Below are positions 1 to 41,970 of a DNA stretch of 46,649 nt, piece by piece. Each line of letters opens with the position of its first letter. The first letter of the stretch is position 1. The notes beneath the pieces were generated by a model. The model searched no databases. It saw only the letters and a list, made by a program, of their open reading frames with translations, and had not been told where the DNA came from. Origin of the DNA: a virus; IMG/VR virus record IMGVR_UViG_3300030107_002350, positions 1-46,649 of that record; one strand, written 5' to 3'. The position numbers and the translations under genes were made by a program.

Positions 1-98
1 TCTAACATGGGAGTTTGTGGCATGGTGCGTAGAGAGACTCTACGACTGGTTGCGGGTATATTGGTTCCCCGTTCCATCTGAAACAAACACAAACTCCT
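1..98. repeat. Left copy of the terminal direct repeat
   Basis: Positions 1-98 are identical to 46550-46647. The copies then differ at the next base (C at 99, T at 46648), two bases before the window ends. This is what a circular or circularly permuted genome assembled as a linear contig would show, or a short real terminal repeat. The plus-strand operon ending at 46542 reads naturally across the junction into the genes at 114 onward, which favours closure. The repeat contains the whole structured RNA element described at 9-98. Confidence 0.9.
9..98 (+). ncRNA. Structured RNA leader element, copy 1
   Basis: The closing stem is GGAGTTTGTG (10-19) against CACAAACTCC (88-97), a perfect 10-bp inverted repeat that a G-U pair can extend (9 with 98). 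Inside, the CATGGTG core (21-27) is followed by hairpin CGTAGA-GAGAC-TCTACG (28-44) and a GCGGG/CCCGT hairpin (52-56 with 68-72). GGTG (24-27) can pair with CATC (75-78). Copy 2 at 41857-41970 shares the core and hairpin but has a different closing stem that is still complementary. The stem ends 16 nt before the ATG at 114. It probably acts in the 5' leader of the RHH-protein mRNA. No known RNA family was recognised. Confidence 0.72.
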
Positions 99-113
99 CT
101 TTAAGAAAATATC

Positions 114-266
114 ATGTCTAACACAAAAACAGATGCGCGAGTTAAAGAGTACAAGCCTGTACTTATTCCAGCTCCGCTGCACCGAAAAATAAAAAGGCTC
201 GCAAGGCGTGAAGGTTTACGCCTTAACGACATCGTCCCGCAACTACTAAAGACCGCTCTGAAATAA
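114..266 (+). CDS. Small ribbon-helix-helix-like protein (50 aa)
   Basis: A 50-residue basic protein. Residues about 15-49 read as a strand (PVLIPAPL) followed by two helices (HRKIKRLARREG and LNDIVPQLLKTAL), the layout of Arc/CopG-type ribbon-helix-helix DNA-binding dimers. The family normally represses its own or nearby promoters, so an early-gene regulator is a reasonable inference; the operator is unknown. It lies directly after structured RNA copy 1, with only a weak AAGAAA purine run before the ATG. Its stop overlaps the next start (TAATG at 264-268), so the two genes are translationally coupled. It is the first gene after the genome junction and heads the DNA polymerase operon. Confidence 0.65.
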   Translation: MSNTKTDARVKEYKPVLIPAPLHRKIKRLARREGLRLNDIVPQLLKTALK

Positions 267-541
267 TGACTGTACTAGATACATTAAGACAAGAATTGGA
301 CAGCTTATCTCCTGACAAGAAGCAAGATACAGAAGCTACGGCTCACAGACTAGCTGACTTAATGTCTACTATCTTGGTTACAGGCTACAAGTCAGGGTTT
401 CAAGATGCGGTAGCAATGCTAGGGTCTTATGCTAACGATCACTTCTCTGGTAACAAAGACTTTGATAAAGAGTCTGCGGAGATTGCTCTAAAGAAGCTAG
501 GCGAAATAGACTTCCCTTCGGATGAGGCACAAACCGAGTGA
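266..541 (+). CDS. Hypothetical helical acidic protein (91 aa)
   Basis: Not recognised. The 91-residue product is acidic and predicted mostly helical, with a moderately hydrophobic stretch around residues 27-52 (LADLMSTILVTGY onward) too weak to call a membrane segment. It begins on the stop codon of the RHH gene. Its last 20 bases overlap the start of the DNA polymerase gene in another frame, so it is embedded in a tightly coupled three-gene unit. A polymerase accessory or early regulatory role would fit the position, but nothing in the sequence proves it. Confidence 0.7.
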   Translation: MTVLDTLRQELDSLSPDKKQDTEATAHRLADLMSTILVTGYKSGFQDAVAMLGSYANDHFSGNKDFDKESAEIALKKLGEIDFPSDEAQTE

Positions 542-4930: not shown

Positions 4931-4935
4931 GATAA

Positions 4936-7900
4936 TCAGTAGCCCTTTGAGGCTAAAAAGTTAGGTAGATTCTCTGCCAGTAATTGCTTACGTTTTTCTG
5001 CTAACACTTCGTCAGCTATCTCTTGGTTGATAACATTACGTACAGCATCCTTGCCTCGGAGCCTGTTGATAAAGTCAACAAACGCAGCGGACTCCCTGAG
5101 AGATTGCGGGTCTTTCGTTATCCTAGGGGATATACGCTTGGGCTTTTGATAGCCTTGTTGCAGTAAGGACTTAAACCTTTCACGATCTAGTATTTGTTTC
5201 CCAGTAACGGGATCTTTACTCTGTGATCTATTCCACGAACTCTGCATAAAATCCTGCAAAGTATCACGCATCTCCTCTTCAGTCTGTGAGTATTGATAGG
5301 TAGACTTTGGTGTAGTTTCGTAACGGTTAAGATTCTGAAACCAACCTGTACCATATTCACCCTTGTTGAGCCTGTTAAATATACGCAGGTCACGCTCGTA
5401 ACCCTTGCGGTCTGCCTCTGCTGCTCTGGTACGCACGTAAGTTGTACCTAACGCCCTGTCTATATCTTTTGAAAGACTTGAACTTGCTATGACTTGGTTA
5501 CGTGCTATGCGAAGTGTCTGGTTTAGATTTGTAATTACGTCCTCAAGAAACCGCATGGTAGTTGGAGTTTCCCTACCGGAATTCAAGTACGCAAACGTAG
5601 TCTGTGCCAAACCCTTGTCAGCAAGTAAGGCTTCAAATCCTGGGAAAGTTACAAAAGACAAATCTTCTGGTGCAGCTTTTCCTGTGCGTATCATACGAAC
5701 CGCGTCATTGCTTAGGCCAGAAAGCAAACCAAAGTAACCGGACATATTCGCCATGTGCATTGCGTGATACACGTAGTCTTCAAAACCAGCATTAGATTCT
5801 AAAAGCTCTGCTGTTGTAGGCTCATAGTTCTCTTTGGCGTTAATCATCTCAGTAAGTTCCATGAGGACATTTGCCTCAACAACAGAACCTAACGTAGATT
5901 TTAGGAAAGGTTTAAAGTCCTTCTTGCCTGTTGCCGGATCACCTTTGGTCATAGGCATCACAACATCCTTCAAGTACCTATTGTACTTTTCAATAGACCA
6001 GCGAGACAGAGAGGTGAACCAACTAGACGGGCCTCTTATAGACCAACTAGGTACACCTCTTGCACCATAAGTACCTTGGTTGATCTCTACCCAAGCTGTC
6101 GCAAGCTTGTTAAGGTCGGCCTCTGTAGTTGTCTCAGGGTTCTTCGCGAGCCTAGCAGTATCAACGTCTCCCATACGGCCCATCAGATTTAGCATACGCT
6201 TAACGTGTGCGTCTGGAGTACCGCTGTTCAGGTAGCTACGCATAAGAAGCTTACCCAAGTTAAATTGTATCGCTCGCGTCCCGCGCTCAAAGAGTTCCCT
6301 GCCTGAGTATTTCTGCGACAAGTCGGCAACTGTTGCCATAGCATCCGAGGCTCGGTCTACGCTGTCGTGTGCAAACTCAAGTCTTGATAGCTTGCTTCGG
6401 TTTGCGCCTGAGATGTGGCTCTGTTTCCAAGCATCTTGAAAATGCGTAAGTGACTTGAGTATCAAAGGCCAGTCCTCTGTCCTCATGTACATATTTGCAT
6501 TCTTAAACGAGTTAACAAAATCACGTACGCCAGACAGAGTTCCGAGCCATTGGGAAGTGATAAGCCTGTTGAGGCGCAGAATTGAAAGGTCTCCTCTACG
6601 ATGGAATCCTGTGTGTACTTCATCAAGATTCTTAAACGTACCCTGCGCTCTCGCGAGATAACCAGCGTCAACGTCGTCACCAAAGATTTCCTTTAGCGTA
6701 GGTGTTAGCATCTTGTCGCTACCCTCACTCTCTGGAGTTCTGTGCGTAGGTACGTTTGCATCATCCGGTAAGTCTCGGATGGCTCGCATTACTTCATCAC
6801 CTTCAATCTGCGTATGCCACGCCATGTCTTTTGAGAACCTGCCGATATACCGCTGCGCTCGCATAAACGGGTCAGCATCTACTAAGTCCGGTGGCATCAG
6901 CAAACCTTCACCCTTACGTAATGCACCAAATTTTGAAGCGGTTGTCAGAGGTCTGTTCTCTCCAGTAGTGGTTACAAAGCTGTCCTTGTTTGAGATAACA
7001 GCTATGTACTCCGCAAGTTCATCGCGGAGTTCAGCCTCTTGGCCAGCCTTTACACCCTCCTGTTGTTGGCGTTGCTTTAACCAGAAAGCTAAAATCTTTT
7101 CTTGGAGTTCCTCACCCTCTTTCGTGTGAGCCTTGGTACGCAACAGAGTGTTGTTATCATGGCTTAACATATAAGGGTCGTAGTAGTCCCCTTGTGTTTC
7201 CTCTACACGAACATATTTATTGCCAACCTTGATGCGTGGCCCGTTAGCAACCTGCTCTGCGCGTGTCTCCCTGTACAACTTATCAAGAGTTTCATTTGCG
7301 TCAGCCAACTTGCGGTTTAGTTTAATATCCGTCTCAAGCTTCTGGTACTTATCGGCGTAAGGTTTTGTGATCGTGCTGTCGTTGCCAAACTTTTTAACAA
7401 GACGACGTAGTATACGATATGTGCCTAAGTCTTGTATCTCCTGCTTGCTCAAGTGCATAGAACGAAAGCGCATTAGCAGAGGTTCTACAAACATATTAAC
7501 ATAACGCTTCTCTGCCATCTCCAATCTGTTATGAGCGTCTCTGGCATACAGAGCCATACGCTTTGTGGAGTCTGTGATCTCGTCATTCTTCAAACCTTCA
7601 AACGGTCTGAGAATTAACTGATCTGTTTCAGCTTGAACAAGACGAGACCAGCCAAAAATCTGACCACGCATAACTGCACGTTCAGCATCAAAATACTCAA
7701 GACCTGTCTGTACCTTGTCAAAGTTTTCAGCGTTGTACCGTGCAGAGTCTCTGACTTCCTTGAATGGGCTTTCTGTTACGGTGCGTTCTCCTTTGGCTTC
7801 TTGGAATTTAAGGTCTCCAGATTCCTGCCTTATACCCTGCATTATCCGCTGGACAGGAGCGCCTGTTGCTGGCTTATCAAACTTCATACCCTGCTCGCGC

Positions 7901-10512
7901 TCTAGGGTTTTCTTCATCTGAGCCATAAGGTCTAAACCTTCTTCTTCCGACACAGCACGCTCACCGGCTCTGTTAAATCTCTCCTTAGCTTCCTGAAATT
8001 TTAAGTCAGCCCAAGGGTCTCTACTCCCAACGCCGCCTATCGCAGCCGCAGGTATTGGATTACCGGCAGTTACATCGTTAAGTATCTTCTGACGTTCTGC
8101 GTCCCAAGCGCGTGCTTCGGCTGGGTCAGTAGGTCGTTCCTTACCCATACGCCTTGCTGCAAAACCGTCTATAAAATCTGAGTTGTACAAAAACGGGTCA
8201 TCGGTTTCGTACTTGATAAGCATAAAGTCTTTAAGATTCTTAGCGGAGAACCTCATACCAAACTTGTGCATCCAACGAAGTTTGGCCTCACGCACAAGTC
8301 GTCTTAACTTCTGCTGATTACCTGTAGCTTTGCGAGTCTTGAGTCGCTGAGTTAAAGCACGGCCTAGAAACTCCACACCTTCTTCTTCGTCTCTGAAAAG
8401 TTTCAGGTAGTCCTCATGCAGCTTACGGTCTTTCTTATTCGTAGAATACTGAAGGTCATCCATGAAGTTGTGCCATCCTTCATGGGCAATTGTGTCATCA
8501 GTTGCAGTACGTGGATCAAAAGTTATGTTACGTGTATCATAAGCCGCGAACCCTGCCTGACGTACGAGTCTGCCATCTGGTGTGCGGCGATATATACCAC
8601 GGCGTATGGCTTCGGTTATATTAAAGCCTCTTACTGCTGCAAGCTTGGCCAACTCAATAAGTACATCCTCATCTAGTGGCTTGAGTTCTTTAGGCTTAGG
8701 CTTGGGGTAAAGTTTATCTATAGCTGCTGCGCGAGACGCTTCTTCCTGCCGAATAAGTTCAATCTCACGCTCGGCATTTTTTCGCGTACCCTCAATGTGA
8801 TCTAGATACTGCTGTCTTACTTTTTTAGCAACTTCCGGTTTAACAAATGGCCCAAGAACTGTTTCTCTTACTTGGATGTCCTCACCTGTAACTGGATCTT
8901 TCTTAACCACCAAGCGTCCGCCGGGTTTGGCTATTTGCATAGAGCCGTTTGCGTTAAGAAAGATAGGACTGCCTGTTAAGTCAGCACCCTGCCCGTATAC
9001 TTCATATAAACCAGAACCCGGCAACCTCCAGACATCCAAGTTTTGATCTAGTGGTTCGCCGTTTCTGTCAACCAAGCGGCGAGAAGCTGATAAATCAAGT
9101 TCTATAGCAGTTCTAGTTCTAGGCTTACCTGTTGCGGGGTCAACGTCTTCAATCTTTTTTGCTCTTTTGCTGAAAAGACCTTTGATTTTACCAACGTCGT
9201 TTGCTAACTGTGATGGCGTACCTTCAATAATGGCTGTGGCTTCGTTAACTTTTTCTTGGAGTTCTGTAAATTTGCTTTGCGCTTTTTCTATAACATCTTT
9301 TCTAGAACTTGGATTTTCGTTTAGTTCTTTTAATCTACCTCTTGCTGCATCTAACTCAGGCTGTAAACGATCAAGGTCTTTTGTTGCTCGCTGAAAAGCT
9401 TTTTCTGTACCAGTATAAATATCCGACAACTCACTTGGTGCAACACCGTAACCTCTTGCGGCTTCTTCTGCTGTCATAGGTACAGCACCAATACCTGACA
9501 CTCTGCCCATACTCTGAGCCGCTGGCCCCGGTGCAGTTGGGTCTAGAAAACCTACGCCACCAGTTACCTCGCGTTCTATCGTAGCAGCAACATCAACAGG
9601 CGTAGGAGTAAGCCTGTTTTCTACAGAACCAACGTGAGTGCCTTCTGTTCCTATAAAAGCCTCGTCACCAAGTCCTTTATGTACGTACGCGGTATCTCGT
9701 ATACTTCTTGTAAGCTCCGCAGAAGATGGCAGAGGTTCTCTATAGATGTTAAAAAATTTGCTAGGGTCTGCGCCACGGGCTATTGCGGCACTCTCGCGTC
9801 TTTTAATTAGATCATCAATAACCTTTGGCTTAAACGTAGGTTTCTGCAATAACGAACCTACGCCAAAAGCACCGGCTAGTCTGCCCGCGTCAAAGTCACC
9901 CCTAGCATACTGTCCTACACCTTCTATACCTGCTTCCAAACCTCCGCCTATAGCTGACTGAGCTAGTGCAGCAGTCTCAGCCTGAGCTAAAGGTCTGGCT
10001 AATGTAGCTTTCCCAGTACCGGTAAGTGCAGATTTAAGCAGTCGTGGGTCAGGTCTAAAAGCTACTAAAGAGGGAGCTACCTGACCGGCAAAAGAAGATA
10101 ACGGGTTAGCAAGCCTCGCTTCCATACGATCTTGCTGTAGCTGTCGCAACTCGTCATCGTCGTAAACAGCACCCTCTATACCTTGCTGCGCTTCGCTGCC
10201 TAAATATGCACCAAGCAGACCTCCGCCAATCATCAAAGGCACGCCAACTAAAGCACCAACTCCTGTAGCAGATAGTGCTGCACCTGCACCTATTGCCCCC
10301 ACTGCTCCGCCTAAACCTGCGCCAGCAGACTCACCTGCACCTGTCGTAAAAGACTCAAACTTTGAGATGTCCTCTGCCAGATAGTCTTCAAGTTCATCAT
10401 CTGTTAAGAGTTCTACCTCGTCAGGGTTAAGACCCTTAGAGCGCATATAGTCATCGTAGATTCCCTTACGTTCGGTATTCGGTCTACGATATACTGGTGT
10501 TAGTTTTGCCAT
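4936..10512 (-). CDS. Giant internal virion/ejection protein with HExxH motif
   Basis: An 1858-residue protein near the end of the virion operon, where podoviruses keep their ejection (internal core) proteins. Residues about 59-105 are a Gly/Ala-rich hydrophobic stretch that could insert in membranes. Long helical regions follow. HEGWH at 677-681 is a zincin-type HExxH, with a candidate downstream acidic ligand in the EEEGVEF segment (about 709-715), so a metallopeptidase-like domain is possible. The octapeptide DLKFQEAK occurs twice (836-843 and 900-907), flanking a short linker. The C-terminal half is helix-rich with no recognisable domain. It probably travels in the capsid and enters the host envelope with the DNA. 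The peptidase role is inference. Confidence 0.75.
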   Translation of the reverse strand: MAKLTPVYRRPNTERKGIYDDYMRSKGLNPDEVELLTDDELEDYLAEDISKFESFTTGAGESAGAGLGGAVGAIGAGAALSATGVGALVGVPLMIGGGLLGAYLGSEAQQGIEGAVYDDDELRQLQQDRMEARLANPLSSFAGQVAPSLVAFRPDPRLLKSALTGTGKATLARPLAQAETAALAQSAIGGGLEAGIEGVGQYARGDFDAGRLAGAFGVGSLLQKPTFKPKVIDDLIKRRESAAIARGADPSKFFNIYREPLPSSAELTRSIRDTAYVHKGLGDEAFIGTEGTHVGSVENRLTPTPVDVAATIEREVTGGVGFLDPTAPGPAAQSMGRVSGIGAVPMTAEEAARGYGVAPSELSDIYTGTEKAFQRATKDLDRLQPELDAARGRLKELNENPSSRKDVIEKAQSKFTELQEKVNEATAIIEGTPSQLANDVGKIKGLFSKRAKKIEDVDPATGKPRTRTAIELDLSASRRLVDRNGEPLDQNLDVWRLPGSGLYEVYGQGADLTGSPIFLNANGSMQIAKPGGRLVVKKDPVTGEDIQVRETVLGPFVKPEVAKKVRQQYLDHIEGTRKNAEREIELIRQEEASRAAAIDKLYPKPKPKELKPLDEDVLIELAKLAAVRGFNITEAIRRGIYRRTPDGRLVRQAGFAAYDTRNITFDPRTATDDTIAHEGWHNFMDDLQYSTNKKDRKLHEDYLKLFRDEEEGVEFLGRALTQRLKTRKATGNQQKLRRLVREAKLRWMHKFGMRFSAKNLKDFMLIKYETDDPFLYNSDFIDGFAARRMGKERPTDPAEARAWDAERQKILNDVTAGNPIPAAAIGGVGSRDPWADLKFQEAKERFNRAGERAVSEEEGLDLMAQMKKTLEREQGMKFDKPATGAPVQRIMQGIRQESGDLKFQEAKGERTVTESPFKEVRDSARYNAENFDKVQTGLEYFDAERAVMRGQIFGWSRLVQAETDQLILRPFEGLKNDEITDSTKRMALYARDAHNRLEMAEKRYVNMFVEPLLMRFRSMHLSKQEIQDLGTYRILRRLVKKFGNDSTITKPYADKYQKLETDIKLNRKLADANETLDKLYRETRAEQVANGPRIKVGNKYVRVEETQGDYYDPYMLSHDNNTLLRTKAHTKEGEELQEKILAFWLKQRQQQEGVKAGQEAELRDELAEYIAVISNKDSFVTTTGENRPLTTASKFGALRKGEGLLMPPDLVDADPFMRAQRYIGRFSKDMAWHTQIEGDEVMRAIRDLPDDANVPTHRTPESEGSDKMLTPTLKEIFGDDVDAGYLARAQGTFKNLDEVHTGFHRRGDLSILRLNRLITSQWLGTLSGVRDFVNSFKNANMYMRTEDWPLILKSLTHFQDAWKQSHISGANRSKLSRLEFAHDSVDRASDAMATVADLSQKYSGRELFERGTRAIQFNLGKLLMRSYLNSGTPDAHVKRMLNLMGRMGDVDTARLAKNPETTTEADLNKLATAWVEINQGTYGARGVPSWSIRGPSSWFTSLSRWSIEKYNRYLKDVVMPMTKGDPATGKKDFKPFLKSTLGSVVEANVLMELTEMINAKENYEPTTAELLESNAGFEDYVYHAMHMANMSGYFGLLSGLSNDAVRMIRTGKAAPEDLSFVTFPGFEALLADKGLAQTTFAYLNSGRETPTTMRFLEDVITNLNQTLRIARNQVIASSSLSKDIDRALGTTYVRTRAAEADRKGYERDLRIFNRLNKGEYGTGWFQNLNRYETTPKSTYQYSQTEEEMRDTLQDFMQSSWNRSQSKDPVTGKQILDRERFKSLLQQGYQKPKRISPRITKDPQSLRESAAFVDFINRLRGKDAVRNVINQEIADEVLAEKRKQLLAENLPNFLASKGY

Positions 10513-26711: not shown

Positions 26712-26928
26712 TTATTATACTGGTTATGTCGTCTACTGTTTTTAACTGTGCAGCCCTGTAACGTATTATAGAGTCTGGAGAGGCTGCGTCTACAGACTTA
26801 AATTTAATCTCGTTTAGTATTTGTTCTTTATATTCATCCAGTCGCTCAATCAAAAGTTTCGTACATACGGAATCACGCCATTGCAAAAACGCTAACTCAG
26901 CTTGCTGTTGGTTGTGGCTGCTGTCCAT
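26614..26928 (-). CDS. Small helical protein between portal and scaffold (104 aa)
   Basis: A 104-residue protein beginning MDSSHNQQQAELAFLQWRD; residues 15-75 are helical (LERLDEYKEQILNEIKF-like), and the C-terminus is basic and Asn/Arg-rich (RNINAGRRTRNRTN). It overlaps the portal gene by 32 nt and the scaffold gene by 98 nt. The basic tail may therefore be an overprinted extension on the scaffold frame. Small proteins at this site are common in podoviruses; none has a function I can name. Confidence 0.55.
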   Translation of the reverse strand: MDSSHNQQQAELAFLQWRDSVCTKLLIERLDEYKEQILNEIKFKSVDAASPDSIIRYRAAQLKTVDDITSIINERGNIIRAEGNSPRSTGRNINAGRRTRNRTN

Positions 26929-30530: not shown

Positions 30531-33500
30531 TTAACTTTGTGCGGCTTCTCGCCGTTGCTTGGCAAGTTCTAGCAGGAACTCTCTAAAGTCTTCGCTCCCT
30601 GTCCAATCAATTCCATCTGTACCTGCTATTATATCCAGCATACCAGCGTTCAAGCCTAAGTCTGATATAACTTTTTTAGCATCGGCCATTCGTTGTGACG
30701 TTATCGTGCTGTCAAAAGACATAGCGTTGTTGTGGAACTTAACCTTTACACCATTTTCCAGTAGGGTTTTGACTATACCGTATCTCATATCGCCTACTTC
30801 ATCGTCTTCGTTTTTGCTGCGGTAGAGTAGCTTTCTGGATACTTCCATCGGGTCTTCTTTCAAATCCTTAGATGTGAAGTTTAGCTTACCTGTTATCTTT
30901 TGTCCGATTTCGGAAAACACCGAACCAACTGCTTTTGCACCTTGGCCGAGTAAGTGGAAAGCTCCGTTGAGTACGTCTTGTATTGGGTTTCCTGAGTAGT
31001 CTGCGTTAGCCTCGAACATACCCTGAGCTGCGTTTTTAATGTCACTAAGGAGTGCGTTGGCTGTCATTCCGATAGCTGCTGGTGGGTTTGTGAGTAGGGC
31101 AAAAATTCCCATAGGTTGAAGATCTCCATATTCTTGGGTTTCTGTTAAGTTGTTCCACTTTCTACCCCAAGCTTCGTCCTTGCTTGTTTCCCATGTTTGA
31201 CCGAGTTCTTTTCTTAGTTTGTTTAGATTTTTCGCAAATTCTTTTAGCTGGTCTTTTGTGCCCTTCAGGCCAGATGCTTGTAAGGATTCCTCGCTAATCG
31301 TCTTACTTGGGTCTCCAGCAAGGTCAAATATGTTGTTAATCATACCACCTAGCTCGTTGAACCCATCTAAAGCTTTGTTGCCGTAGCCTACGATTTTACC
31401 TGTCTCGTCTTTCTTCTCGTAGTTAAGATTACTAAACCCAATGTCCGGTCTTAATGACTGGTTTCCATCTACCCAGTTATCAAAGTCTTCGACCGTTCTG
31501 AAAGTAACTGTCTTCCCGTCACTAACACCATTAGGGTGTAGGCTGTCAAGTACGGGAGTTATGCTGCCTTTTGATACCTCCATAGTTTCTTGCGCCGAGA
31601 ATCCTGCGAAACCATCTTCTAGGCCACCGGGAACTCCTTCTGATATTGTAGATGTTCCGGTTGTTCCCGTGCTGCCGCCCATTGTACTGCCGGGTGTTCC
31701 TGTGGGCAGAGGTGCGTTTTGCTTGAAGTCGTAACCTGCACGATTAGACCACCATGAGAGTGGCTGTTGTGTTATTTCTCCAGTCTCTCTGTTTACCTGT
31801 GGGCCAGATGTGTAAGGTGTTTGAGATATTATAGGCTGTCCCTGAGATGCGCCAGACGTAGACCAGCGCGTTTCTGCATAACCTTGTGGGCCTGTGTACA
31901 GCCAACCACGACCCGGTGCTGGTTCTTGAGCCTGAACTTGTTGATTTCTGTTTGGGGTTACCTGTTGTTCTGGCAAGTCTGGTACAGCTAAGTTTGGATT
32001 CTGTGCAAATGTTTCTGTTGTTTCTGTTGTTGCAGGTAGCGAGTCTGGAGTTTCCGTTACTATCTGTGCATCAGTTATCTCGCCGGTAAATGGTTGTTCT
32101 TGTACTTGGGTTATATCTGGCCCTGCATTTACGTCTATTCCCTCTGGTATAACAATTGTGTCTTGCGTTAAGGTCGCTGATGGGTCAATAGTTTTAGCTA
32201 GGATTTCTGGATTAGCCTGTACTATTGCGGGATCTAGCGGGGGTTTGCCGGGTTCTGTCACAGGGCCGCGTATGTAGCCATGAGGGCCAGAAGCGTGTCC
32301 CGGTACGTTTTTAACCATGTCACCCTCTTGATCTTTAAAAATCATTGGGTTAGAGCCGGGAGGTGGAAAGTTTATCTCGCCAGCGTCCATAGTTTCTGGT
32401 TCTACCGGAATAGGCACGGAGTCTAACTGTATAGGTTCTTGTACAGGAAGCGGGTCTTCTGCTACGGTTATTGGCTGTTCTGTTATGGTGGGGGTTGGTT
32501 GTTGTCTAGGGTCTATTGGGGGCAAGGCTACTTCGTACGGGTTTATTTCTGGTTGTAACTGAGTGGTTATTTCCGGTGCAGTTTGTATTGGTGGCTGTGC
32601 TAGAGGGTTTTGTGCAATAACGGGGGCAGTTTGTACTGGTGGTGCTTGGTCTATGATATCTTGTACTTGCTGTGCCTGTGGGCTTTCTGCCCATTGGGGT
32701 ACGTCAGACTCAGGCACAACTATGCTTTTAGGTTCTGCGGTGGTTACCTCTGGTACTATGTCGTCTAGGATGGTTGTTACCTCGTCAGGGACTATTGGTT
32801 GTTCTGTTGCAGGGGTAGGTTGTTGTATTTGTATGGGTTCTGCGATGGCTGTTTCTGTGAGGGTTGGTGGAGAGAAAGTTTCTTGAGCGACAACCGGAGG
32901 ACTTATTGGGGATAGTGTCGGGGGTAACTCTGGTGTTATTGTTCCTACAGGGTCTGCTTGGGGTCTAATTATTTGAGTTCCTATTGGCCCTTGGTCTATT
33001 GGCAGAGGCATGGGAGCCTCAATGTAGACGGGTTGAGGCTGTTGTATGTCAACTGGTTCTGCTGTTGTATCTACGCCTACGTTAGGGCCGGGTACAGGTA
33101 AAGGTTGCTGTGGAGTTATTAGGTTCGGTTGTACGGAAGAAACGGGGGGTAGTAAATTGGGCTGCTGGGGCGCAGTTAGGTTTGGCGTTATTGGGGAAGC
33201 TGGTGGTGTAGTTCTTGGGTCAGGTAAAGCTATGTCGCCTTCTCCAGTTTCTCGTCGAAATCTTGGGTCTACCGTAGGGGGTTGATTTTCTGGCATCCAT
33301 ACTCTGTCTGGAGATGGGCCGTAGTTTTCTGGTCTTGGAGCTGGAGTACCCATGCGCCTCCTTGGCATAGGCTCTGCTATGATAGCGTTGGGCGCAGGAG
33401 CAGGAACAGGTTCTACAGCAACAGGAGGCGGAAATATGGGCTGCGAAATCGTAGGCTGGTAGTAGTCGTTGTATACTGTAGGCCCGGTGTCTATTCCGGT

Positions 33501-33599
33501 AGCAGGAGCTATCGGAGGTACAAACTGCGGAGATACCCGCCTCACAGGTCTAATCGCCTGTTGCTGGTTAACTTGTGGTTTCGCTATTGTCCTCGCCAT
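30531..33599 (-). CDS. Pro/Gln-rich large structural protein (1022 aa)
   Basis: First annotated gene of the virion operon. Residues 1-560 are low complexity, rich in Pro, Gln, Ile, Thr and Val (such as PPTLSPISPPVVAQETFSPP). Residues about 560-650 are Gly/Thr-rich. The C-terminal 370 residues are a normal globular, helical sequence (for example GFNELGGMINNIFDLAGDPS) with no motif I know. The long disordered N-terminal tether would suit a minor virion protein, or a fibre or scaffold-associated protein. Placement before the terminase is unusual for a structural gene. No lysozyme or peptidase motif is visible in the C-terminal part. Confidence 0.6.
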   Translation of the reverse strand: MARTIAKPQVNQQQAIRPVRRVSPQFVPPIAPATGIDTGPTVYNDYYQPTISQPIFPPPVAVEPVPAPAPNAIIAEPMPRRRMGTPAPRPENYGPSPDRVWMPENQPPTVDPRFRRETGEGDIALPDPRTTPPASPITPNLTAPQQPNLLPPVSSVQPNLITPQQPLPVPGPNVGVDTTAEPVDIQQPQPVYIEAPMPLPIDQGPIGTQIIRPQADPVGTITPELPPTLSPISPPVVAQETFSPPTLTETAIAEPIQIQQPTPATEQPIVPDEVTTILDDIVPEVTTAEPKSIVVPESDVPQWAESPQAQQVQDIIDQAPPVQTAPVIAQNPLAQPPIQTAPEITTQLQPEINPYEVALPPIDPRQQPTPTITEQPITVAEDPLPVQEPIQLDSVPIPVEPETMDAGEINFPPPGSNPMIFKDQEGDMVKNVPGHASGPHGYIRGPVTEPGKPPLDPAIVQANPEILAKTIDPSATLTQDTIVIPEGIDVNAGPDITQVQEQPFTGEITDAQIVTETPDSLPATTETTETFAQNPNLAVPDLPEQQVTPNRNQQVQAQEPAPGRGWLYTGPQGYAETRWSTSGASQGQPIISQTPYTSGPQVNRETGEITQQPLSWWSNRAGYDFKQNAPLPTGTPGSTMGGSTGTTGTSTISEGVPGGLEDGFAGFSAQETMEVSKGSITPVLDSLHPNGVSDGKTVTFRTVEDFDNWVDGNQSLRPDIGFSNLNYEKKDETGKIVGYGNKALDGFNELGGMINNIFDLAGDPSKTISEESLQASGLKGTKDQLKEFAKNLNKLRKELGQTWETSKDEAWGRKWNNLTETQEYGDLQPMGIFALLTNPPAAIGMTANALLSDIKNAAQGMFEANADYSGNPIQDVLNGAFHLLGQGAKAVGSVFSEIGQKITGKLNFTSKDLKEDPMEVSRKLLYRSKNEDDEVGDMRYGIVKTLLENGVKVKFHNNAMSFDSTITSQRMADAKKVISDLGLNAGMLDIIAGTDGIDWTGSEDFREFLLELAKQRREAAQS

Positions 33600-33929: not shown

Positions 33930-33939
33930 GTGTTAATGT

Positions 33940-34667: not shown

Positions 34668-34695
34668 GCCTCCCCCGCAACATACACCAAGCAAG

Positions 34696-34898: not shown

Positions 34899-34926
34899 TG
34901 GCGGTTGCTAGAGAAAGAAAGTCAAA

Positions 34927-35412: not shown

Positions 35413-35414
35413 CC

Positions 35415-35900: not shown

Positions 35901-35922
35901 TAACTTTGGACTACCAAAGAAA

Positions 35923-37470
35923 ATGAAAGTACAGAAACCAGACAGAGACCATATGCTAGATTGCACAGAGCATATAGTCCAAGCGGCTATTGAAACGATA
36001 GTCGAGAATGCCGGAGCGCGTAGTATGCCGTTCCAGATAAAGGCTGCGACAAGTGCAGCCATCAAGCTACAGCAGAAGCAAGGTGTTCTGCTCCAAGCTC
36101 ACGCCGGTCTAGGGAAAACCTACATGGTACTTCCCGCAATCAAATACCTACTCGACAACAACCTACTCGAGAAGAAAAGTAATTGGCCTATGCCAATCCT
36201 GTGGGTTACTCCAGCAGCAGTAATCCCCCAAACTCTAGAAGTCATCAACCAGTTTAGGCTAACTCCCTATGTATTCCCTATGTCTTACGCCGGTCTGCGC
36301 GGTAAGATAGGTGAGCAAGTTTATTGGACTAAGCACAAGCATCCGGTACACAATACGTTTGCATACAACTGGAACCCACACGCTTTACCATCTCTGGTAG
36401 TCTTTGATGAATGCCAAGGTCTCAAGAACGAGACCGCTTCCCAGACACAGATCGCTTGGTCTATCCCACAGGGAGTCAAACGTATCTTTATCTCTGCTAC
36501 TCCCTACCAGAAAGTCAGCGAGTCACGTAGCGTAGTCCAAGGTGTAGGTATGAACTACGGTCAAGAACAAGTTACGACAGACACAGCTCCGCAACTACTG
36601 CGAGACATAGCTCGCTGGGGTAGCCCAAACAAACTATGCCAAGCTCAGATGGGTAGACTACGTGACTCCATGAAACCTTACGCTGTCTACGTGCCAAAGG
36701 TGCGCTACAAGCACGTAACCCACACGCGCTGTCGTCTCATAGAGTTTGAGAGCGACGAAGAGAAGGCACAATATGATGGCTTCTACGAAGCGTTCCTCGC
36801 CAAGTGTCGTAAGTACGACCGTAACACTAACTTCGGTTGGAACGAGATGCTTGTAGCCATGCAGAAGTTCCGAGAGGGAGCCGAACTTACTCGCTCCAAG
36901 CGTATGGCCAAGCGTGCGATAAGCACTATCGAGCGGGGCCGACAGACTATCGTAGTCTGCAACTTCGTTGAACCTATGCGGGAAGTATACAAGTCTCTGG
37001 TAGACCTCGGCCTTCCCAAGTCCAGGATTACTCACATTGTTGGCGGACAATCCCAAAGCACAAGGGAACACCAACGGCAACAGTTCCAGAAAGGTGAAGC
37101 AGATGTTATGCTATTCACTATGCGGTCAGGTGGAGTAGGTATCAGCTTACACCACGACAACGAAAAGGCTAGGCCACGACACATAATCATACCTCCGACA
37201 TGGTCAGCCATAGACTTAGTCCAAGCACTAGGTCGAGGCCACCGCATCACCTCTATATCTGACACGACTCAGGATGTTATATGGTACAAGAACACCATAG
37301 AAGAAAAGGTATGCGAACGGGTAGAGGCTAAGCTAGGTTGCATCAACGCTTCAGTAGGTGCGAAAGAAAATTGGGTTAACGTATTCACCAACGGTACAGT
37401 ACAAAAAGACATAGCTACCAAAGACGAATACACCGAGAGCGAAGAGGAAAACCTTACAGTAGAACAATGA
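35923..37470 (+). CDS. SNF2/DEAD-type superfamily 2 helicase
   Basis: A 515-residue ATPase. Motif I is AHAGLGKT (59-66). Motif Ia is around VTPAAVIP. Motif II reads LVVFDECQGLKN, with DECQ at 162-165. Motif III is ISATPY (190-195). Motifs V and VI lie in the C-terminal domain (TMRSGGVGISLHHD, then LVQALGRGHRI). The lysine-poor 'helicase-C' with LGRGHR is typical of SNF2-like phage helicases thought to act in replication or recombination. An acidic tail ends the protein. The next start overlaps its stop (ATGA). Confidence 0.88.
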   Translation: MKVQKPDRDHMLDCTEHIVQAAIETIVENAGARSMPFQIKAATSAAIKLQQKQGVLLQAHAGLGKTYMVLPAIKYLLDNNLLEKKSNWPMPILWVTPAAVIPQTLEVINQFRLTPYVFPMSYAGLRGKIGEQVYWTKHKHPVHNTFAYNWNPHALPSLVVFDECQGLKNETASQTQIAWSIPQGVKRIFISATPYQKVSESRSVVQGVGMNYGQEQVTTDTAPQLLRDIARWGSPNKLCQAQMGRLRDSMKPYAVYVPKVRYKHVTHTRCRLIEFESDEEKAQYDGFYEAFLAKCRKYDRNTNFGWNEMLVAMQKFREGAELTRSKRMAKRAISTIERGRQTIVVCNFVEPMREVYKSLVDLGLPKSRITHIVGGQSQSTREHQRQQFQKGEADVMLFTMRSGGVGISLHHDNEKARPRHIIIPPTWSAIDLVQALGRGHRITSISDTTQDVIWYKNTIEEKVCERVEAKLGCINASVGAKENWVNVFTNGTVQKDIATKDEYTESEEENLTVEQ

Positions 37471-37610
37471 AAAAACGTAGACTTCGAGACCTTAACAAAG
37501 AACTAAGTAGAACAGGTACACCTTTAGGTTTAGGAAACCAACAACGTGCAGCCAACACTAACAAAGGCAAGTCCACTAACAGACAGAAGCCTAGGAGACG
37601 TAAGAAATGA
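37467..37610 (+). CDS. Tiny very basic protein (47 aa)
   Basis: A 47-residue protein, nearly all Lys, Arg, Asn, Thr and Gln (MKKRRLRDLNKELSRTGTP, then a QKPRRRKK end), probably disordered and able to bind nucleic acid. Its ATG overlaps the helicase TGA and its own TGA overlaps the next ATG. The double overlap supports translation. No family was recognised. Confidence 0.6.
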   Translation: MKKRRLRDLNKELSRTGTPLGLGNQQRAANTNKGKSTNRQKPRRRKK

Positions 37611-37765
37611 GCCGCAAGTACACAAATCTACTTATCGAAATGGTCGAAGATGGTAGAGTAGACAAAGACCAACTTATTCTAGCCTTCGCCAAGTACATGA
37701 GCGAGGACGAAGTAAAGGACATGATGCACGTAAACGAAATAACTACAGACAACAATGAAGAATAA
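37607..37765 (+). CDS. Small acidic helical protein (52 aa)
   Basis: A 52-residue protein, not recognised. Short helices with a hydrophobic face (NLLIEMVEDGRVDKDQLILA) and an acidic end. The helix-turn-acidic layout (EDGRVDKDQLILAFAKYMSE) resembles small phage regulator or inhibitor proteins. It is coupled by overlap to the genes before and after. Confidence 0.55.
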   Translation: MSRKYTNLLIEMVEDGRVDKDQLILAFAKYMSEDEVKDMMHVNEITTDNNEE

Positions 37766-37877
37766 AACATACATACACTTAATGTACTCTATGACAACCA
37801 TACTCCATTGGACTATCCTCGGTACTCTAGCATGGGTAACAGGCATAGCCCTCGGCTACTTACTATTCTACCCATGA
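37755..37877 (+). CDS. Single-pass membrane peptide (40 aa)
   Basis: A 40-residue peptide with one strong hydrophobic helix (about residues 12-38: SMTTILHWTILGTLAWVTGI onward) and a short basic N-terminus. It overlaps the upstream gene by 11 nt and the downstream gene as ATGA. Small membrane peptides in an early operon may modify the envelope or exclude other phages. The function is unknown. Confidence 0.5.
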   Translation: MKNKTYIHLMYSMTTILHWTILGTLAWVTGIALGYLLFYP

Positions 37878-38230
37878 ACCCACAAGATAAAGAATACGTA
37901 GACCTACCACACACCTACGTCTTTACCATAGACACCGAGACAGCGTTCAGTAATATCGGGGAATGTATCCCAACAATTCTTGAAGCGTACGAAAAAGCCG
38001 GAGACATTAAAGGCTACAGCTTTGGCAACTGGGTAGAAGTCCAAGCTCCCTCTTATGTCTACGGAAAAAGTCTAGCTTGGACAGATCGCAAGCTACTCAA
38101 CAAGACTACTTATTGGATAGTCTTTAAGACATCTGAATATGTAGATGTCATGCGTCCAATACAAGCTCTATGTATGTACCTAGAGGCAAAGAAAAACAAT
38201 AACAACAACACAGAAGAAAATGAGTTCTAA
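37874..38230 (+). CDS. Hypothetical protein (118 aa)
   Basis: Not recognised. A mixed alpha/beta protein (residues 10-35 LPHTYVFTIDTETAFSNIGE; 75-95 KTTYWIVFKTSEYVDVMRP) ending in an Asn/Glu-rich tail. The start is the ATG at 37874, which overlaps the membrane peptide stop; an upstream in-frame start at 37808 would read through that gene. It overlaps the CobS-like gene by 11 nt. Confidence 0.6.
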   Translation: MNPQDKEYVDLPHTYVFTIDTETAFSNIGECIPTILEAYEKAGDIKGYSFGNWVEVQAPSYVYGKSLAWTDRKLLNKTTYWIVFKTSEYVDVMRPIQALCMYLEAKKNNNNNTEENEF

Positions 38231-39257
38231 TAATGACTGGATAGATGGACTAACAGAACAAGTCCTAGGAAAAATAGACGACAAGTACACAGAGAAGTTT
38301 ACTGCTCTGGAAAAGGCAATCGCTGAGACTACTCAGCAGAATGTAAAGCTAGAAATCAAACGTGTCATAGCGCACAACAGGGAACACTACTCTACGTTAG
38401 AGGGTCAGCACTACCAAGTGAAGCCTCTACTCGAAACGCTGGGAGCCGGTTTGTCTGCTATGATTATCGGGCCTACGGGTAGCGGTAAGACTAGGGTAAC
38501 AAAGCCTGTCGCCAAAGCCCTTGGTTGTAAGCACTACGCTATACGTCAGGTTAACAAACAGACAGGGACGCACGATCTTATTGGATTCAATAACAGCGGC
38601 GGACAGTACGTACCTGGTGTGTTGACTGACGTAATTAAACACGGTGGTCTAGCTGTTATAGATGAGATGGACAACGGGAATAGTAACGTACTCATGATTA
38701 TCAAGGGTATCTGTAGCGGGCATATCAATATGCCGTACGGCCCGCAGGACGTACACCCTGACTGTCGGCTTATGTGTACCGCAAACACGTGGGGACTTGG
38801 GCCAGACCGAGAGTACGTAGGACGCAACGCGCTAGACGTAGCCCTGCTAAACGAGTTCGTCTGTATAGAATGGCCGTACGATACGGATGCGGAGAAAGCT
38901 TGGGTTAAGGAAACATATATCCGAGTAGACAAACCTCACATTACTCCCATACAGTTTAATAAATTCTGCGACAGGTTCCAGAAGATGAGGGAGTACGCAG
39001 AGAACAACAAGATACGAGTCATCTTTAGCACACGTAACCTACACCAGTGTATTACTTTGCAAGCTATGTCTGGTTGGGATGCAGTAGATTGCCTAGATGC
39101 CACAGTCTTTCGCTCTGTCAAAGGTGACGCTCGACGTAAGCTACTCGACGTATACATGGAGAAGCTCAAGCCTATAAAACCTGTCGAGTACAGCAAGCCG
39201 AAGCCGAACGTACCGGAAGAAGTAAAAGATATCGTAGACGAAGAAGTACCGTTTTGA
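38220..39257 (+). CDS. CobS/MoxR-like AAA+ ATPase
   Basis: A 345-residue ATPase. Walker A is GPTGSGKT (84-91) and Walker B VIDEMD (146-151). The 'AIRQVNKQTGTHDLIGF' and 'YVPGVLTDVIKHGG' segments are typical of the CobS/AAA_5 group, followed by the sensor region (CTANTWGLGPDREYVGRNAL). Cellular CobS works with CobT in cobalt chelation. Phage homologues without CobN or cobalamin genes are frequent, with unknown targets, perhaps protein remodelling in replication or host takeover. The next genes may encode its partners. Confidence 0.82.
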   Translation: MSSNNDWIDGLTEQVLGKIDDKYTEKFTALEKAIAETTQQNVKLEIKRVIAHNREHYSTLEGQHYQVKPLLETLGAGLSAMIIGPTGSGKTRVTKPVAKALGCKHYAIRQVNKQTGTHDLIGFNNSGGQYVPGVLTDVIKHGGLAVIDEMDNGNSNVLMIIKGICSGHINMPYGPQDVHPDCRLMCTANTWGLGPDREYVGRNALDVALLNEFVCIEWPYDTDAEKAWVKETYIRVDKPHITPIQFNKFCDRFQKMREYAENNKIRVIFSTRNLHQCITLQAMSGWDAVDCLDATVFRSVKGDARRKLLDVYMEKLKPIKPVEYSKPKPNVPEEVKDIVDEEVPF

Positions 39258-39265
39258 AAAGAGCT

Positions 39266-39550
39266 ATGAAGATAACACTAGACTACAAACTAAACCCCGA
39301 CAAGGACTACACGTTAAAGGATATTAACCTATACCTCTATGCTTACTGCGAAGAAAGGAATCCAGAGATAGCCCGTAAACTATTTGACCCACTAATGACC
39401 TTGGTAGGCTACAGTATGGACTTGGTTATGAACTACCATGTAAACAAGATACTCGTAGAGTTGCCAAAGTTTGGGCGAGAGATACAGGAACTAAGAGAAG
39501 AACGACAACGCCGCTTGAGCCATGAAGATAATAAAGAAAACAATCTATAG
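39266..39550 (+). CDS. Hypothetical protein (94 aa), CobS-like neighbour
   Basis: Not recognised. A charged helical protein (residues 10-70: NLYLYAYCEERNPEIARKLF, MNYHVNKILVELPKFGREIQ) with an Arg/Glu-rich tail. The ATG at 39266, with AAAAGAG just upstream, is preferred; a TTG at 39254 overlapping the CobS-like stop (TTGA) would add four residues. Its end overlaps the 294-aa gene by 29 nt. It may be a partner of the AAA+ protein. Confidence 0.6.
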   Translation: MKITLDYKLNPDKDYTLKDINLYLYAYCEERNPEIARKLFDPLMTLVGYSMDLVMNYHVNKILVELPKFGREIQELREERQRRLSHEDNKENNL

Positions 39551-40406
39551 TTGGGACGAGTTCCGCTCTGTCCTAGACAATGAACCAAAGCTAGAGGAAG
39601 AAAATTCAGACTTGAACATCTGGTCTTCAAAGGAAACTACAGAGACAGACGACTGGTACGGTACGAAGTCTTGGCTTGAAGCCGTGTTCATACTGGACGC
39701 AGGTGGTTGGGGTATACCAAAGCTAGAGCGCACAAAGATAGACGACAAAATAACAGACTCTATCGCACCGCTCGAAGACTACCTGACAGAGTACGTGCCT
39801 ACTGTAGCTGGAGGTACAATAAACATAGAAGCTGCCATAGCAGACTGCTCTCCCGAACACTTCATAGAGGAAGAGGAAACAGAGACAGTCATAACCAAAG
39901 GCAAAAGACTTCTGACAATCTACGTTAACTGCTGGAACCATTGCGGTATACCGGAGGACTGTTACTTCCATAGGGGAGCCTTGATATACAAAGCCATAGA
40001 CCACTTGGAAACCTTGGGCTACGGCTGCGAAGTTATCGCCACATTCCCTTGTCGCAGTGGCCAAGAGGCTCACATAACCTACGTTAAGATCAAGGACTTC
40101 CAAGAGATGATGGACATAGACAAGTTATGTATAACTATGTGCGCTACGTTTATGATGCGCCGATTCCTATTCCACCTCCAAGAACTAGAACCGCCAGACA
40201 TACGCAAGAAGTTTGGCTACTTCGCCAATGGTGGCTATGGCACACAGATAAAGATGGGTACTCTATCAGACGAAGACATTGCTATCCAACAAGACAGCTC
40301 CGAGCTTATCTTCTGGTACGATGTCTCTGGATTAGAGCGAGTCAAGGACATAGAGGAAGCGTTCATCAAGTTAGTGGAGACCAAGTTCAATGAAGTCACA
40401 GACTGA
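39522..40406 (+). CDS. DUF7192-like hypothetical protein (294 aa)
   Basis: A 294-residue protein with conserved-looking aromatic segments: WGIPKLERTKID (about 65-76), VNCWNHCGIP (about 134-143), RGALIYKAIDHLETLGYGCE (about 150-169) and GQEAHITYVKIKD (about 177-189). The pattern matches proteins that accompany CobS-like ATPases in phages (DUF7192, from memory). The function is not known; a substrate adaptor or CobT-like partner is possible. It overlaps the sigma-54 activator gene by 17 nt. Confidence 0.6.
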   Translation: MKIIKKTIYSWDEFRSVLDNEPKLEEENSDLNIWSSKETTETDDWYGTKSWLEAVFILDAGGWGIPKLERTKIDDKITDSIAPLEDYLTEYVPTVAGGTINIEAAIADCSPEHFIEEEETETVITKGKRLLTIYVNCWNHCGIPEDCYFHRGALIYKAIDHLETLGYGCEVIATFPCRSGQEAHITYVKIKDFQEMMDIDKLCITMCATFMMRRFLFHLQELEPPDIRKKFGYFANGGYGTQIKMGTLSDEDIAIQQDSSELIFWYDVSGLERVKDIEEAFIKLVETKFNEVTD

Positions 40407-41172
40407 CGCAGAGCGCCTACGGGAAAAGGCAGAGAAGCTACTCAAGGCACACACTCTACCAAAAGACTTCGGCTTTGTTACACAAGACGCTGATACTCTA
40501 CGGCTTCTAGCCTTGGCGGATAAGCTTGCGCCCCTAGATGATACGGTGCTGATTACCGGAGAGAGCGGCACAGGTAAAGACCTTGTTGCACGTAGGCTAC
40601 ACGGCAGGCGTAGCGGTAGGTTTCTATCGTTGAACCTGTCAGCAATACCGGAGAGTATGATACAGAGCGAACTCTTTGGCCATGTTAAGGGAGCCTATAC
40701 GGGTGCGGTATCCAACCGTATGGGTCTGCTGGTCGCTGCCTCCAGAGGTACGATGTTTCTGGATGAGATAGGAGATATATCCCCTGCGCTACAGGTCTTG
40801 CTTCTCCGTGTCATAGAGACACGCAAGTTTCGTAGGATAGGCGAGAACGAAGACACAGAATTCAAGGGCCGATTTATCTTTGCCTCGAACAAAGTAAACT
40901 CCGGTTTCCGTGAAGACCTCTACCACAGAATCGCCACCTACAGGCTAGACCTAAAGCCATTGAGAGACAGGCCAGATGACATCCCCCTTATAGTGGACTC
41001 CCTTGGCTTAGGCTTTACACCAGAGGAAATCAAAGACCTCTGGCAACTAATCCGTACCGCCAAGAAATACCAAGAGGAACTACTCTCAGGCAACGTACGG
41101 GAACTTATCCGCCTCGCCAAACAGTATAAAGTTCTAGGCCGAGACAACCTAGACCTCTACTCTAGGCTCTAA
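40390..41172 (+). CDS. Bare sigma-54 activator ATPase (bEBP)
   Basis: A 260-residue AAA+ protein with the complete set of bacterial enhancer-binding protein motifs. Walker A is GESGTGKD (57-64), and the sigma-54-contacting loop GAYTGA (101-106, normally GAFTGA) follows ELFGHVK. Walker B is MFLDEIGDI (122-130). Arginine fingers lie in FREDLYHRI (173-181). Sensor II is GNVREL (234-239). It lacks the N-terminal receiver/GAF domain and the C-terminal Fis-type HTH, so it is constitutive in form and likely acts from solution, as described for some bEBPs without DNA-binding domains. It should open promoters bound by host RpoN-RNA polymerase. Its gene ends about 150 nt before a -24/-12 site. Confidence 0.88.
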   Translation: MKSQTDAERLREKAEKLLKAHTLPKDFGFVTQDADTLRLLALADKLAPLDDTVLITGESGTGKDLVARRLHGRRSGRFLSLNLSAIPESMIQSELFGHVKGAYTGAVSNRMGLLVAASRGTMFLDEIGDISPALQVLLLRVIETRKFRRIGENEDTEFKGRFIFASNKVNSGFREDLYHRIATYRLDLKPLRDRPDDIPLIVDSLGLGFTPEEIKDLWQLIRTAKKYQEELLSGNVRELIRLAKQYKVLGRDNLDLYSRL

Positions 41173-41239
41173 GAAAATTCCTTACAGGGAAAGACAACCT
41201 TAACACAGAGTATTATTATTATTATTCCAGCCCCCCCTG

Positions 41240-41269
41240 TGGAAACTGGAATACTGGAAACTGGAATAT
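41240..41269 (+). repeat. Tandem 15-bp repeat TGGAAACTGGAATA(C/T)
   Basis: TGGAAACTGGAATAC (41240-41254) is followed directly by TGGAAACTGGAATAT (41255-41269). The preceding TATTCCAG (41223-41230) is inverted to CTGGAATA in the first unit, so a stem can form. At 80-110 nt upstream of the predicted sigma-54 start, this is where enhancer (upstream activating) sites usually lie. It could instead be a terminator-like structure after the activator gene. Confidence 0.6.
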
Positions 41270-41308
41270 AGGCTACGAAAAAACTTTCAACTTTTAGAAT
41301 TATTTTTC

Positions 41309-41403
41309 AACAGTTGTAACAGTTGGCATGATTCCTGCTTTATATAGATAGTTAAAAAATTAACTGCTAACAGTTAAAAGAATTTTGCACTAACAGTTAA
41401 AGG
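41309..41403. repeat. TAACAGTT repeats around the sigma-54-type promoter
   Basis: Copies are AACAGTTG (41309-41316), TAACAGTT (41317-41324, touching the -24 box), TAACAGTTAAAAG (41368-41380) and TAACAGTTAAAGG (41391-41403). AGTTAA-AAAA-TTAACT (41350-41365) adds an inverted half-site pair at the predicted start. The same motif flanks the sigma-54-type site at 33727-33743. It may be the operator of a phage regulator that overlaps or follows the promoter. Confidence 0.6.
41323..41339 (+). promoter_or_regulatory. Sigma-54-type (-24/-12) promoter for the recombination operon
   Basis: TTGGCATGATTCCTGCT: TGGCATG at -24 and CTGCT at -12, with exactly 10 nt between GG (41325-41326) and GC (41337-41338). 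Against YTGGCACGRNNNTTGCW it has two mismatches. The predicted start is near 41350, about 80 nt before the ATG at 41430. It lies directly downstream of the gene for a sigma-54 activator. The alternative is a sigma-70 site with TTGGCA and GATAGT, which is a weaker match. Confidence 0.65.
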
Positions 41404-41429
41404 TGCATCAGTAAAAGAAAGTAAATACT

Positions 41430-41849
41430 ATGTTAAACATAGAAACAAACTACACGATGGAGCATTTCCAGTCTGGCGATTGGGAAGGCTATAAGTTCGC
41501 AGTACCAGAGTTCAAGGCTACAGCAGATGTAGTCAGCAGGTACGGCGAGGAAAAAACACTAGCCTTGTTGAACCAACAGGTTAGCGCACGTATCCGGTCT
41601 ACGGTAAAGAACTCGTTGAAGCCTAACGGCAAAACAACTGAGGAACTCAAGGCTGAGTTAGACCAGCAGCATCCAGATCAGGTAATCTATACCAAGGAGG
41701 ACGCTGACAAGTGGACACCGGAGACTACAACAGAAACTCCTAACAAGCTTTTCAATAAAGCCAAGGCAGCGTTTGCCGCTGGTGATATTGAACAGGGTAA
41801 GGCGTTAATCAAGCGCATGGAGGAACTGATGCCTTCTAACGAAGGCTAA
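41430..41849 (+). CDS. Hypothetical protein (139 aa)
   Basis: Not recognised. An acidic, helical protein. Residues 50-70 are RSTVKNSLKPNGKTTEELKA, and the end is AKAAFAAGDIEQGKALIKRM, a TPR-like helix pair. It is the first gene after the sigma-54-type promoter and is separated from the next gene by structured RNA copy 2. That isolation and the purine-rich AAAGAAAG before the ATG suggest strong, separately tuned expression. The role is unknown. Confidence 0.7.
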   Translation: MLNIETNYTMEHFQSGDWEGYKFAVPEFKATADVVSRYGEEKTLALLNQQVSARIRSTVKNSLKPNGKTTEELKAELDQQHPDQVIYTKEDADKWTPETTTETPNKLFNKAKAAFAAGDIEQGKALIKRMEELMPSNEG

Positions 41850-41856
41850 GAAAACA

Positions 41857-41970
41857 AAGAGTAGCGTAGCATGGTGTGTAGGGAGAACCTACAACGGGAT
41901 ACCAGTAACAAGGGTTTTTGTATTCCCCCTTGTTCAACTCTGTCGCCTATAGAAACACTACGCTACTCTT
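41857..41970 (+). ncRNA. Structured RNA leader element, copy 2
   Basis: The closing stem AAGAGTAGCGTAG (41857-41869) pairs perfectly over 13 bp with CTACGCTACTCTT (41958-41970). The CATGGTG core (41870-41876) and the hairpin TGTAGG-GAGAA-CCTACA (41877-41893) match copy 1 at 9-98, with base-pair swaps in the stem (C-G to T-A, A-T to G-C) and the loop GAGA kept. A second hairpin is AACAAGGG/CCCTTGTT (41907-41914 with 41927-41934). GGTG (41873-41876) pairs with CGCC (41944-41947). The stem ends 15 nt before the ATG at 41986. It probably controls that gene. Confidence 0.75.

Follow-up and report, generated by a model that had tools for sequence, protein, structure and literature searches.

A compact three-way-junction RNA class carried by many viruses and by a few bacteria and archaea, possibly a self-cleaving ribozyme

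The viral record analyzed here (the window; 46,649 bases) contains two copies of an RNA element, both members of an RNA class that is absent from Rfam 15. Its members fold into a compact three-way junction of three covarying helices, in which the junction strands (CAUGGUG, AC, and GAAACA) and the GAGA loop are nearly intolerant of change. It is carried by many viruses and by a few bacteria and archaea. It is gene-agnostic and portable, with copies directly downstream of stop codons, next to tRNAs, behind archaeal genes, arranged in tandem, or, in some cases, embedded in frame within a gene. We tentatively favor a portable cis-acting RNA-processing module, for which a new putative self-cleaving ribozyme is the leading candidate. 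The RNA family appears to be new, where newness refers to the family and not to a proven function; literature searches, which reached neither figures nor most subscription papers, turned up no paper in which the motif was recognized, and an earlier description may exist elsewhere.

Copy 1 occupies positions 10 to 97 and copy 2 positions 41857 to 41970, both on the + strand of the window. They were recognized in the sequence and scored 47.0 bits (E 1.6e-10) and 62.8 bits (E 2.6e-15; positions 41858 to 41969), respectively, with covariance model R1, whose own alignment includes both. In copy 1, the closing stem P1 (10-19/88-97) encloses CATGGTG (21-27), P2 (28-33/39-44) with the loop GAGAC (34-38), AC (45-46), the P3 region (47-79), and GAAACA (80-85), and an ATG is located at position 114, 16 nt past P1'. 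Similarly, copy 2 is composed of P1 (41857-41869/41958-41970), CATGGTG (41870-41876), P2 (41877-41882/41888-41893) with the loop GAGAA (41883-41887), AC (41894-41895), the P3 region (41896-41951), and GAAACA (41952-41957), with an ATG at position 41986, 15 nt past P1'. The places of the two copies, their core, their GAGA loop, and the spacing of 15 to 16 nt to an ATG are as an earlier note on this DNA had described them. Its description of closing stems that are unlike yet complementary was likewise confirmed in the sequence, the copies having no common stem sequence, and the difference in P2 indeed amounts to two compensated pairs (C-G/U-A and A-U/G-C). Among the conserved elements that it listed, the CATGGTG core and the hairpin stand, whereas the 3' strand GAAACA, which is invariant in the class, had been overlooked. 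The folding z scores were -2.85 for copy 1 and -4.29 for copy 2, and in each case 1 of 200 shuffles folded equally well.

A third GCATGGTGYGTAG match was observed in the window at position 46569. However, positions 46550 to 46647 (+ strand) are identical to positions 1 to 98, and once the contig ends are joined, 593 of 600 bases agree with L003, a continuous relative. The contig is thus circular, the match at 46569 is copy 1 again, and the genome holds two copies of the element rather than three. Upstream of copy 1 lies a gene for a single-strand DNA-binding protein-like product (46066 to 46542, + strand; phrog_378, E 3.2e-5), and downstream are a 50-amino-acid ORF without a family match (114 to 266, + strand) and, further on, a DNA polymerase gene (522 to 2909, + strand; phrog_17, E 5.8e-67). 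Copy 2 is flanked by a 139-amino-acid ORF (41430 to 41849, + strand), which stops 7 nt before P1, and by a 182-amino-acid ORF (41986 to 42534, + strand), both without a PHROG match. A megablast search of window positions 36000 to 45000 against phages gave zero matches. On the - strand, the window also contains a 1,796-amino-acid ORF (18240 to 23630) with repeats of a 39-nt period at 18647 to 18770 and 19175 to 19298, as well as large ORFs without a PHROG match (12773 to 15154, 26897 to 28582, and 30531 to 33599), which are perhaps divergent structural proteins.

The class consensus was derived from 30 loci around polymerase relatives and 21 loci retrieved with a strict DNA pattern. It consists of a variable P1, CAUGGUG, a 6-bp P2, the loop GAGAN, AC, a variable P3, NNU-GAAACA, and P1'. 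The consensus fold contains one bulged G and extra GU/AC pairs at the base of P2, which are constant in alignment A2 (defined below), instead of the pairing between GGTG and C(A/G)(T/C)C proposed previously; the latter is unsupported, and since GGTG is constant in A2, it lies beyond the reach of covariation. In 20 listed relatives of copy 1, coordinated changes affect the last position of CAUGGUG and the A of AC (G/A in 7, A/G in 8, and A/U in 5), but these sequences are closely related, so that the co-changes amount to few events. The base preceding GAAACA was U in 137 of 170 distinct cores. Core variants comprise UAUGGU(G/A) in relatives of copy 1 and AAUGGUG in two of the terminase copies described below.

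Pairing was assessed at several levels. Among the matches listed for all loci (277 raw matches), P2 was paired at 5 or 6 of its 6 positions in 204, of which 179 are distinct with their flanks. The 73 matches with fewer than 5 of 6 pairs all came from the scan of bacterial and archaeal genomes, where 50 of the 123 matches listed were paired. When distinct cores among the matches listed were considered, 170 of 218 paired, as compared to an expectation of 38.8 (maximum, 52) after shuffling of the P2 strands. In the viral scan, 119 of the 120 listed stretches were examined, the remaining one being already among the earlier loci; P2 was paired at 5 or more of 6 positions in all 119, and P1 was also paired at 5 or more of 8 positions in 92 of these. 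Furthermore, in the 103 distinct viral members, taken without any selection for pairing, 99.5% of the P2 cells paired (61.3% after shuffling; maximum, 66.2%), as did 82.3% of the P1 cells (43.2%; maximum, 49.0%), and 102 members had at least three of the four outer P3 pairs (shuffled mean, 73.6; maximum, 82).

Alignment A2 is composed of 84 sequences, namely, the two window copies and 82 of the 93 non-redundant members with at least 5 of 6 pairs in P2 and at least 6 of 8 in P1 (omitted were L069, L089, L049, L135, L151, L160, L164, L210, L085, L145, and L231). Because the members were chosen for pairing, the P1 and P2 statistics of A2 are favorably selected: 90.8% of the cells paired, as opposed to 51.3% after shuffling, and double changes numbered 686 versus 225. 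The covariation score was 0.966, whereas slid controls reached at most 0.19. There were 143 G.U and 29 A.C combinations in A2, and this excess of G.U identifies the sense strand as the functional molecule. The class thus recurs with compensated stems in homologues, as is expected of the functional structured RNA with a conserved core and covarying stems that had been proposed from the two copies.

Because the loose pattern used for the scans forces the core and demands no pairing, the viral scan was repeated with one base changed. The original core was found at a minimum of 120 loci, as compared to 11 for a GAAA loop, 9 for GAAAGA in place of GAAACA, and 1 for CATCGTG in place of CATGGTG; these controls represent three single changes, one in each of the three core strands. 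Only two of the 21 control matches had at least 5 pairs in P2, namely, L430, in which P1 was paired at only 4 of 8 positions, and L162, a normal member with GAAAGA further on. The controls therefore provided zero new members with both P1 and P2 paired. The identity of the core is required and is not merely a product of the search pattern, and GAAA is not accepted for GAGA, which is stricter than expected of a general GNRA loop. A small ORF starting at the AUG of CAUGGUG was also considered and rejected: GAAACA was distributed over the three frames in 60, 60, and 50 of the 170 distinct cores, and 83 had a stop codon within the core, indicating that a coding constraint is absent.

The view that the copies match no known family was borne out by Rfam 15. 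The window had zero matches at the gathering score, the regions of copies 1 and 2 gave only matches far below that score at E ≤ 10, and no match overlapped the element in 11 further loci at E ≤ 5. In locus L039, positions 512 to 644 showed a sub-threshold match to the Y RNA-like family YrlA (42.9 bits versus the 69 needed), located among viral tRNAs.

The loose pattern hit at least 120 loci in viral contigs and gave at least 123 matches in GTDB genomes, and the abundance is a lower bound in both cases. In each of the 30 polymerase-relative loci, a covariance model search detected a relative of copy 1 located 356 to 539 nt ahead of the polymerase match, and many further viral loci contain the element, either as a single copy or in tandem. 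All 15 viral records that were searched whole, each chosen for holding a member, contained one or two copies. The cellular occurrence was sporadic, with 3 of 300 genomes in the class of the archaeal metagenome-assembled genome (MAG) G001, 3 of 337 in the phylum of G003, and 3 of 297 in the phylum of G008, the seed genomes being counted in each case; G001 itself had 17 matches. BLAST searches with a 32-nt consensus, which are insensitive to members with other stems, returned no match or short matches only from the INPHARED phages and short matches only from the PLSDB plasmids. Inspection of 8 of these 28 short hits with the model revealed no member (best score, 10.2 bits).

The genomic context was analyzed for the 170 distinct elements among the matches listed (120 viral and 50 cellular), using ORFs from a longest-ORF script and not from a gene finder, which makes them unreliable in GC-rich DNA. 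According to this script, 43 of the 170 elements lie inside an ORF, although many such ORFs are doubtful. An upstream ORF within 300 nt was on the same strand in 86 cases and on the opposite strand in 25. The same-strand upstream ORFs ended no more than 20 nt from P1 in 47 of 86 cases, and 19 of 68 same-strand downstream ORFs began within 20 nt after the element, while 13 overlapped it with the start chosen by the script. In 11 of 179 elements, the core had a tRNA no more than 20 nt away; 10 of these tRNAs were on the same strand (including one doubtful tRNA call, L231), and in 7 the element precedes the tRNA. The roles of upstream and downstream genes are hard to separate in packed phage genomes. 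Around position 2036 of the Xylanimicrobium locus L185, 26 tRNAs were predicted in 8 kb, apparently forming a tRNA array, with a tRNA-Ala located 12 nt ahead of the element core.

A complex and nearly unchangeable core usually marks an RNA class as a ribozyme, a riboswitch, or a component of ribonucleoproteins. The presence of the element in viruses as well as in bacterial and archaeal contigs favors an RNA that is independent of lineage-specific proteins. We infer a cis action on the transcript in which the element happens to lie, for which it would serve as a processing or boundary module. As a small ribozyme, it would cleave itself, which would separate the neighboring units of long transcripts and give defined RNA ends. 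In broader terms, and put with a little more reserve, this may be a new small natural ribozyme class, or an equally autonomous RNA device, which viruses and a few cells would place almost anywhere in a transcript, including in-frame sites in terminase and transposase genes, and which would process or delimit RNA without protein. The element is small and easily synthesized, and it is common in viral contigs while being absent from Rfam 15. Were it catalytic, it would represent a new class of ribozymes; were it to bind a protein, it would be a cis-acting control common to viruses and some archaea.

The hammerhead ribozyme has the consensus core CUGAUGA / GAAA / UH in three-way junction order, and the HDV-like fold consists of nested pseudoknots. 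The occurrence of the element in viruses and in bacterial and archaeal contigs, its dispersal, its nearby multiple copies, and its positions at tRNAs and gene boundaries have also been reported as traits of self-cleaving ribozymes. Several copies of hammerheads flank variable genes in prophages, archaeal members exist, and a hammerhead is located 13 nt upstream of a helicase start in haloviruses HF1/HF2 (PMC3088659). Theta ribozymes are HDV-like RNAs of gut phages that lie beside phage tRNAs, with cleavage sites adjoining the tRNA and a proposed 3'-trailer role (PMC10879173). The element shares three stems and invariant core bases with the hammerhead, and with theta ribozymes the nature of a small phage RNA beside tRNA genes. 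However, its junction strands are CAUGGUG, AC, and NNUGAAACA, the sequences and order of which misfit the hammerhead core; it has in-frame copies inside ORFs; and, unlike theta ribozymes, it more often precedes the tRNA (7 of the 10 same-strand cases within 20 nt). Neither the hammerhead nor the HDV-like Rfam models matched the window copies (E ≤ 10) or the 11 further loci (E ≤ 5).

The strongest argument against constitutive cleavage is provided by copies inside terminase genes. In locus L133, the element lies in frame within a large terminase-like ORF (24 to 28% identity to annotated phage terminases in tblastn). Of the 55 homologous terminase loci, 15 had an in-frame element, and 36 of the other 40 had a different loop and no element, L378 among them perhaps holding a remnant; of the remaining four, L421 and L425 do not reach across the site, and the script gave no reading for L399 and L424. 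In all 15 copies, P2 was paired at 6 of 6 positions, with five different sequences, and P1 at 6 to 8 of 8 positions. The amino acids changed along with it, examples being SGE(I/N)PE, PEE(I/N)SG, SEEISE, SEENSE, and SDERSE. The protein thus varies while the RNA pairing persists, the changes in P2 being non-synonymous compensation, and the in-frame copies represent a natural example of an RNA structure steering a protein sequence. Further in-frame copies were found in a Mu transposase (L290; Pfam DDE_2, E 3.7e-38) and in two ORFs without a Pfam match (L060 and L282). In L129, a terminase ORF (6506 to 9301) contains, besides an in-frame element, an insert resembling an intein, which matched Pfam Intein_splicing with E 2.3e-8 and a score of 34.4 bits, slightly below the curated cut-off of 35.8.

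Since a cut terminase mRNA should be harmful, a constitutive self-cleaver fits badly with these copies, which favor a signal acting on a factor or on the polymerase. Such a cis element, which would bind a protein or act on RNA polymerase as, for instance, a put-like antiterminator, a pause, or an mRNA-stability signal, is a somewhat unlikely alternative. It would fold in the nascent RNA and recruit or block a factor while tolerating translation, and we regard this mode of action, too, as possible rather than probable. It is compatible with the in-frame copies, with the placement before untranslated tRNAs, and with the strict identity of loop and junction. The put RNA of phage HK022 consists of two hairpins acting on bacterial RNA polymerase; like the element, it is a structured RNA of phage operons, and it acts in cis. 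However, archaeal transcription machinery differs from that of bacteria, and the element class has the same core in viral contigs and in archaeal MAGs. Moreover, for an antiterminator, a convergent downstream gene leaves nothing to read. According to the script, the next ORF is convergent for at least 6 of the 17 copies in G001, yet for only 2 of the 8 copies linked to the genes described next.

In G001, 8 of the 17 copies lie 67 to 122 nt past the stop codon of a PQQ-dehydrogenase ORF (8 of 8 assigned by Pfam), and one copy in G196 lies 128 nt past another PQQ-dehydrogenase stop. The G001 loci L173 and L330 to L341 hold a family of large PQQ-dehydrogenase ORFs, eight of which are followed by the element. 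This placement, together with the frequent position of the element close behind stop codons, would be expected of a 3'-end or exonuclease-stalling element, the fold of which shields upstream mRNA and tRNA precursors from ribonucleases. We consider this unlikely, as it leaves the in-frame copies and those 5' of tRNAs unexplained and as any stable hairpin would suffice, yet GAAA does not replace GAGA. Furthermore, a strict script detected terminators behind only 6 of 169 elements, while the opposite-strand control gave 4 and shuffling gave 1; with counts so near to the control, a general link to terminators is not claimed. By eye, a GC-rich hairpin and a T run closely follow the element in L031, L040, L048, L066, L070, and L117, in some of which an opposite-strand ORF comes next.

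A trans-acting decoy or anti-defense RNA would need only transcription, anywhere, in agreement with the position-agnostic placement and with the one or two copies per record in the 15 viral records searched whole. The 17 copies in one archaeal MAG, eight of which lie behind one gene family, make this reading doubtful. Rather improbable, too, is a mobile or selfish element that spreads by insertion, whether REP- or RPE-like or an intron relic. The copies in G001 are alike one another, but eight of the 17 are those behind one gene family. In-frame copies in unrelated genes, the 36 terminase homologs without an insert at the same site, and the tandem copies are consistent with it. However, the two copies of one phage have no common stem sequence, and stems diverge while a complex unpaired core is fixed, with P2 compensated at one site. 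Rickettsia palindromic elements are palindromic inserts that lie in frame within protein genes and are known only from Rickettsiales; they share the in-frame insertion with the element but are not known to have such an invariant junction core.

The earlier note had proposed a leader RNA of a cis-regulatory class, possibly ligand- or protein-sensing and placed before genes, which corresponds to a riboswitch-type reading. The position of both window copies 15 to 16 nt before an ATG and the compact junction with invariant nucleotides would suit such a function, but the genomic context makes it very unlikely. The element sits tighter against the upstream stop codon than against the downstream gene, some downstream genes are convergent, and copies lie behind archaeal genes and inside ORFs. 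The neighboring proteins are diverse, including RusA, a head protease, SSB, helicases, a sliding clamp, and Erf, and have no common function; among the ORFs scanned (50 of 52 upstream and 38 of 40 downstream, with two archaeal paralogs and the ORFs of L183 and L222 omitted), no common downstream pathway was found. Finally, fortuitous hairpins or a bias of the chosen pattern, which could account for the 73 of 277 listed raw matches with poor P2 pairing, all from the genome scan, are refuted as an explanation of the class by the pairing of P2 in 119 of 119 viral matches examined, by the single-substitution controls, and by the shuffles.
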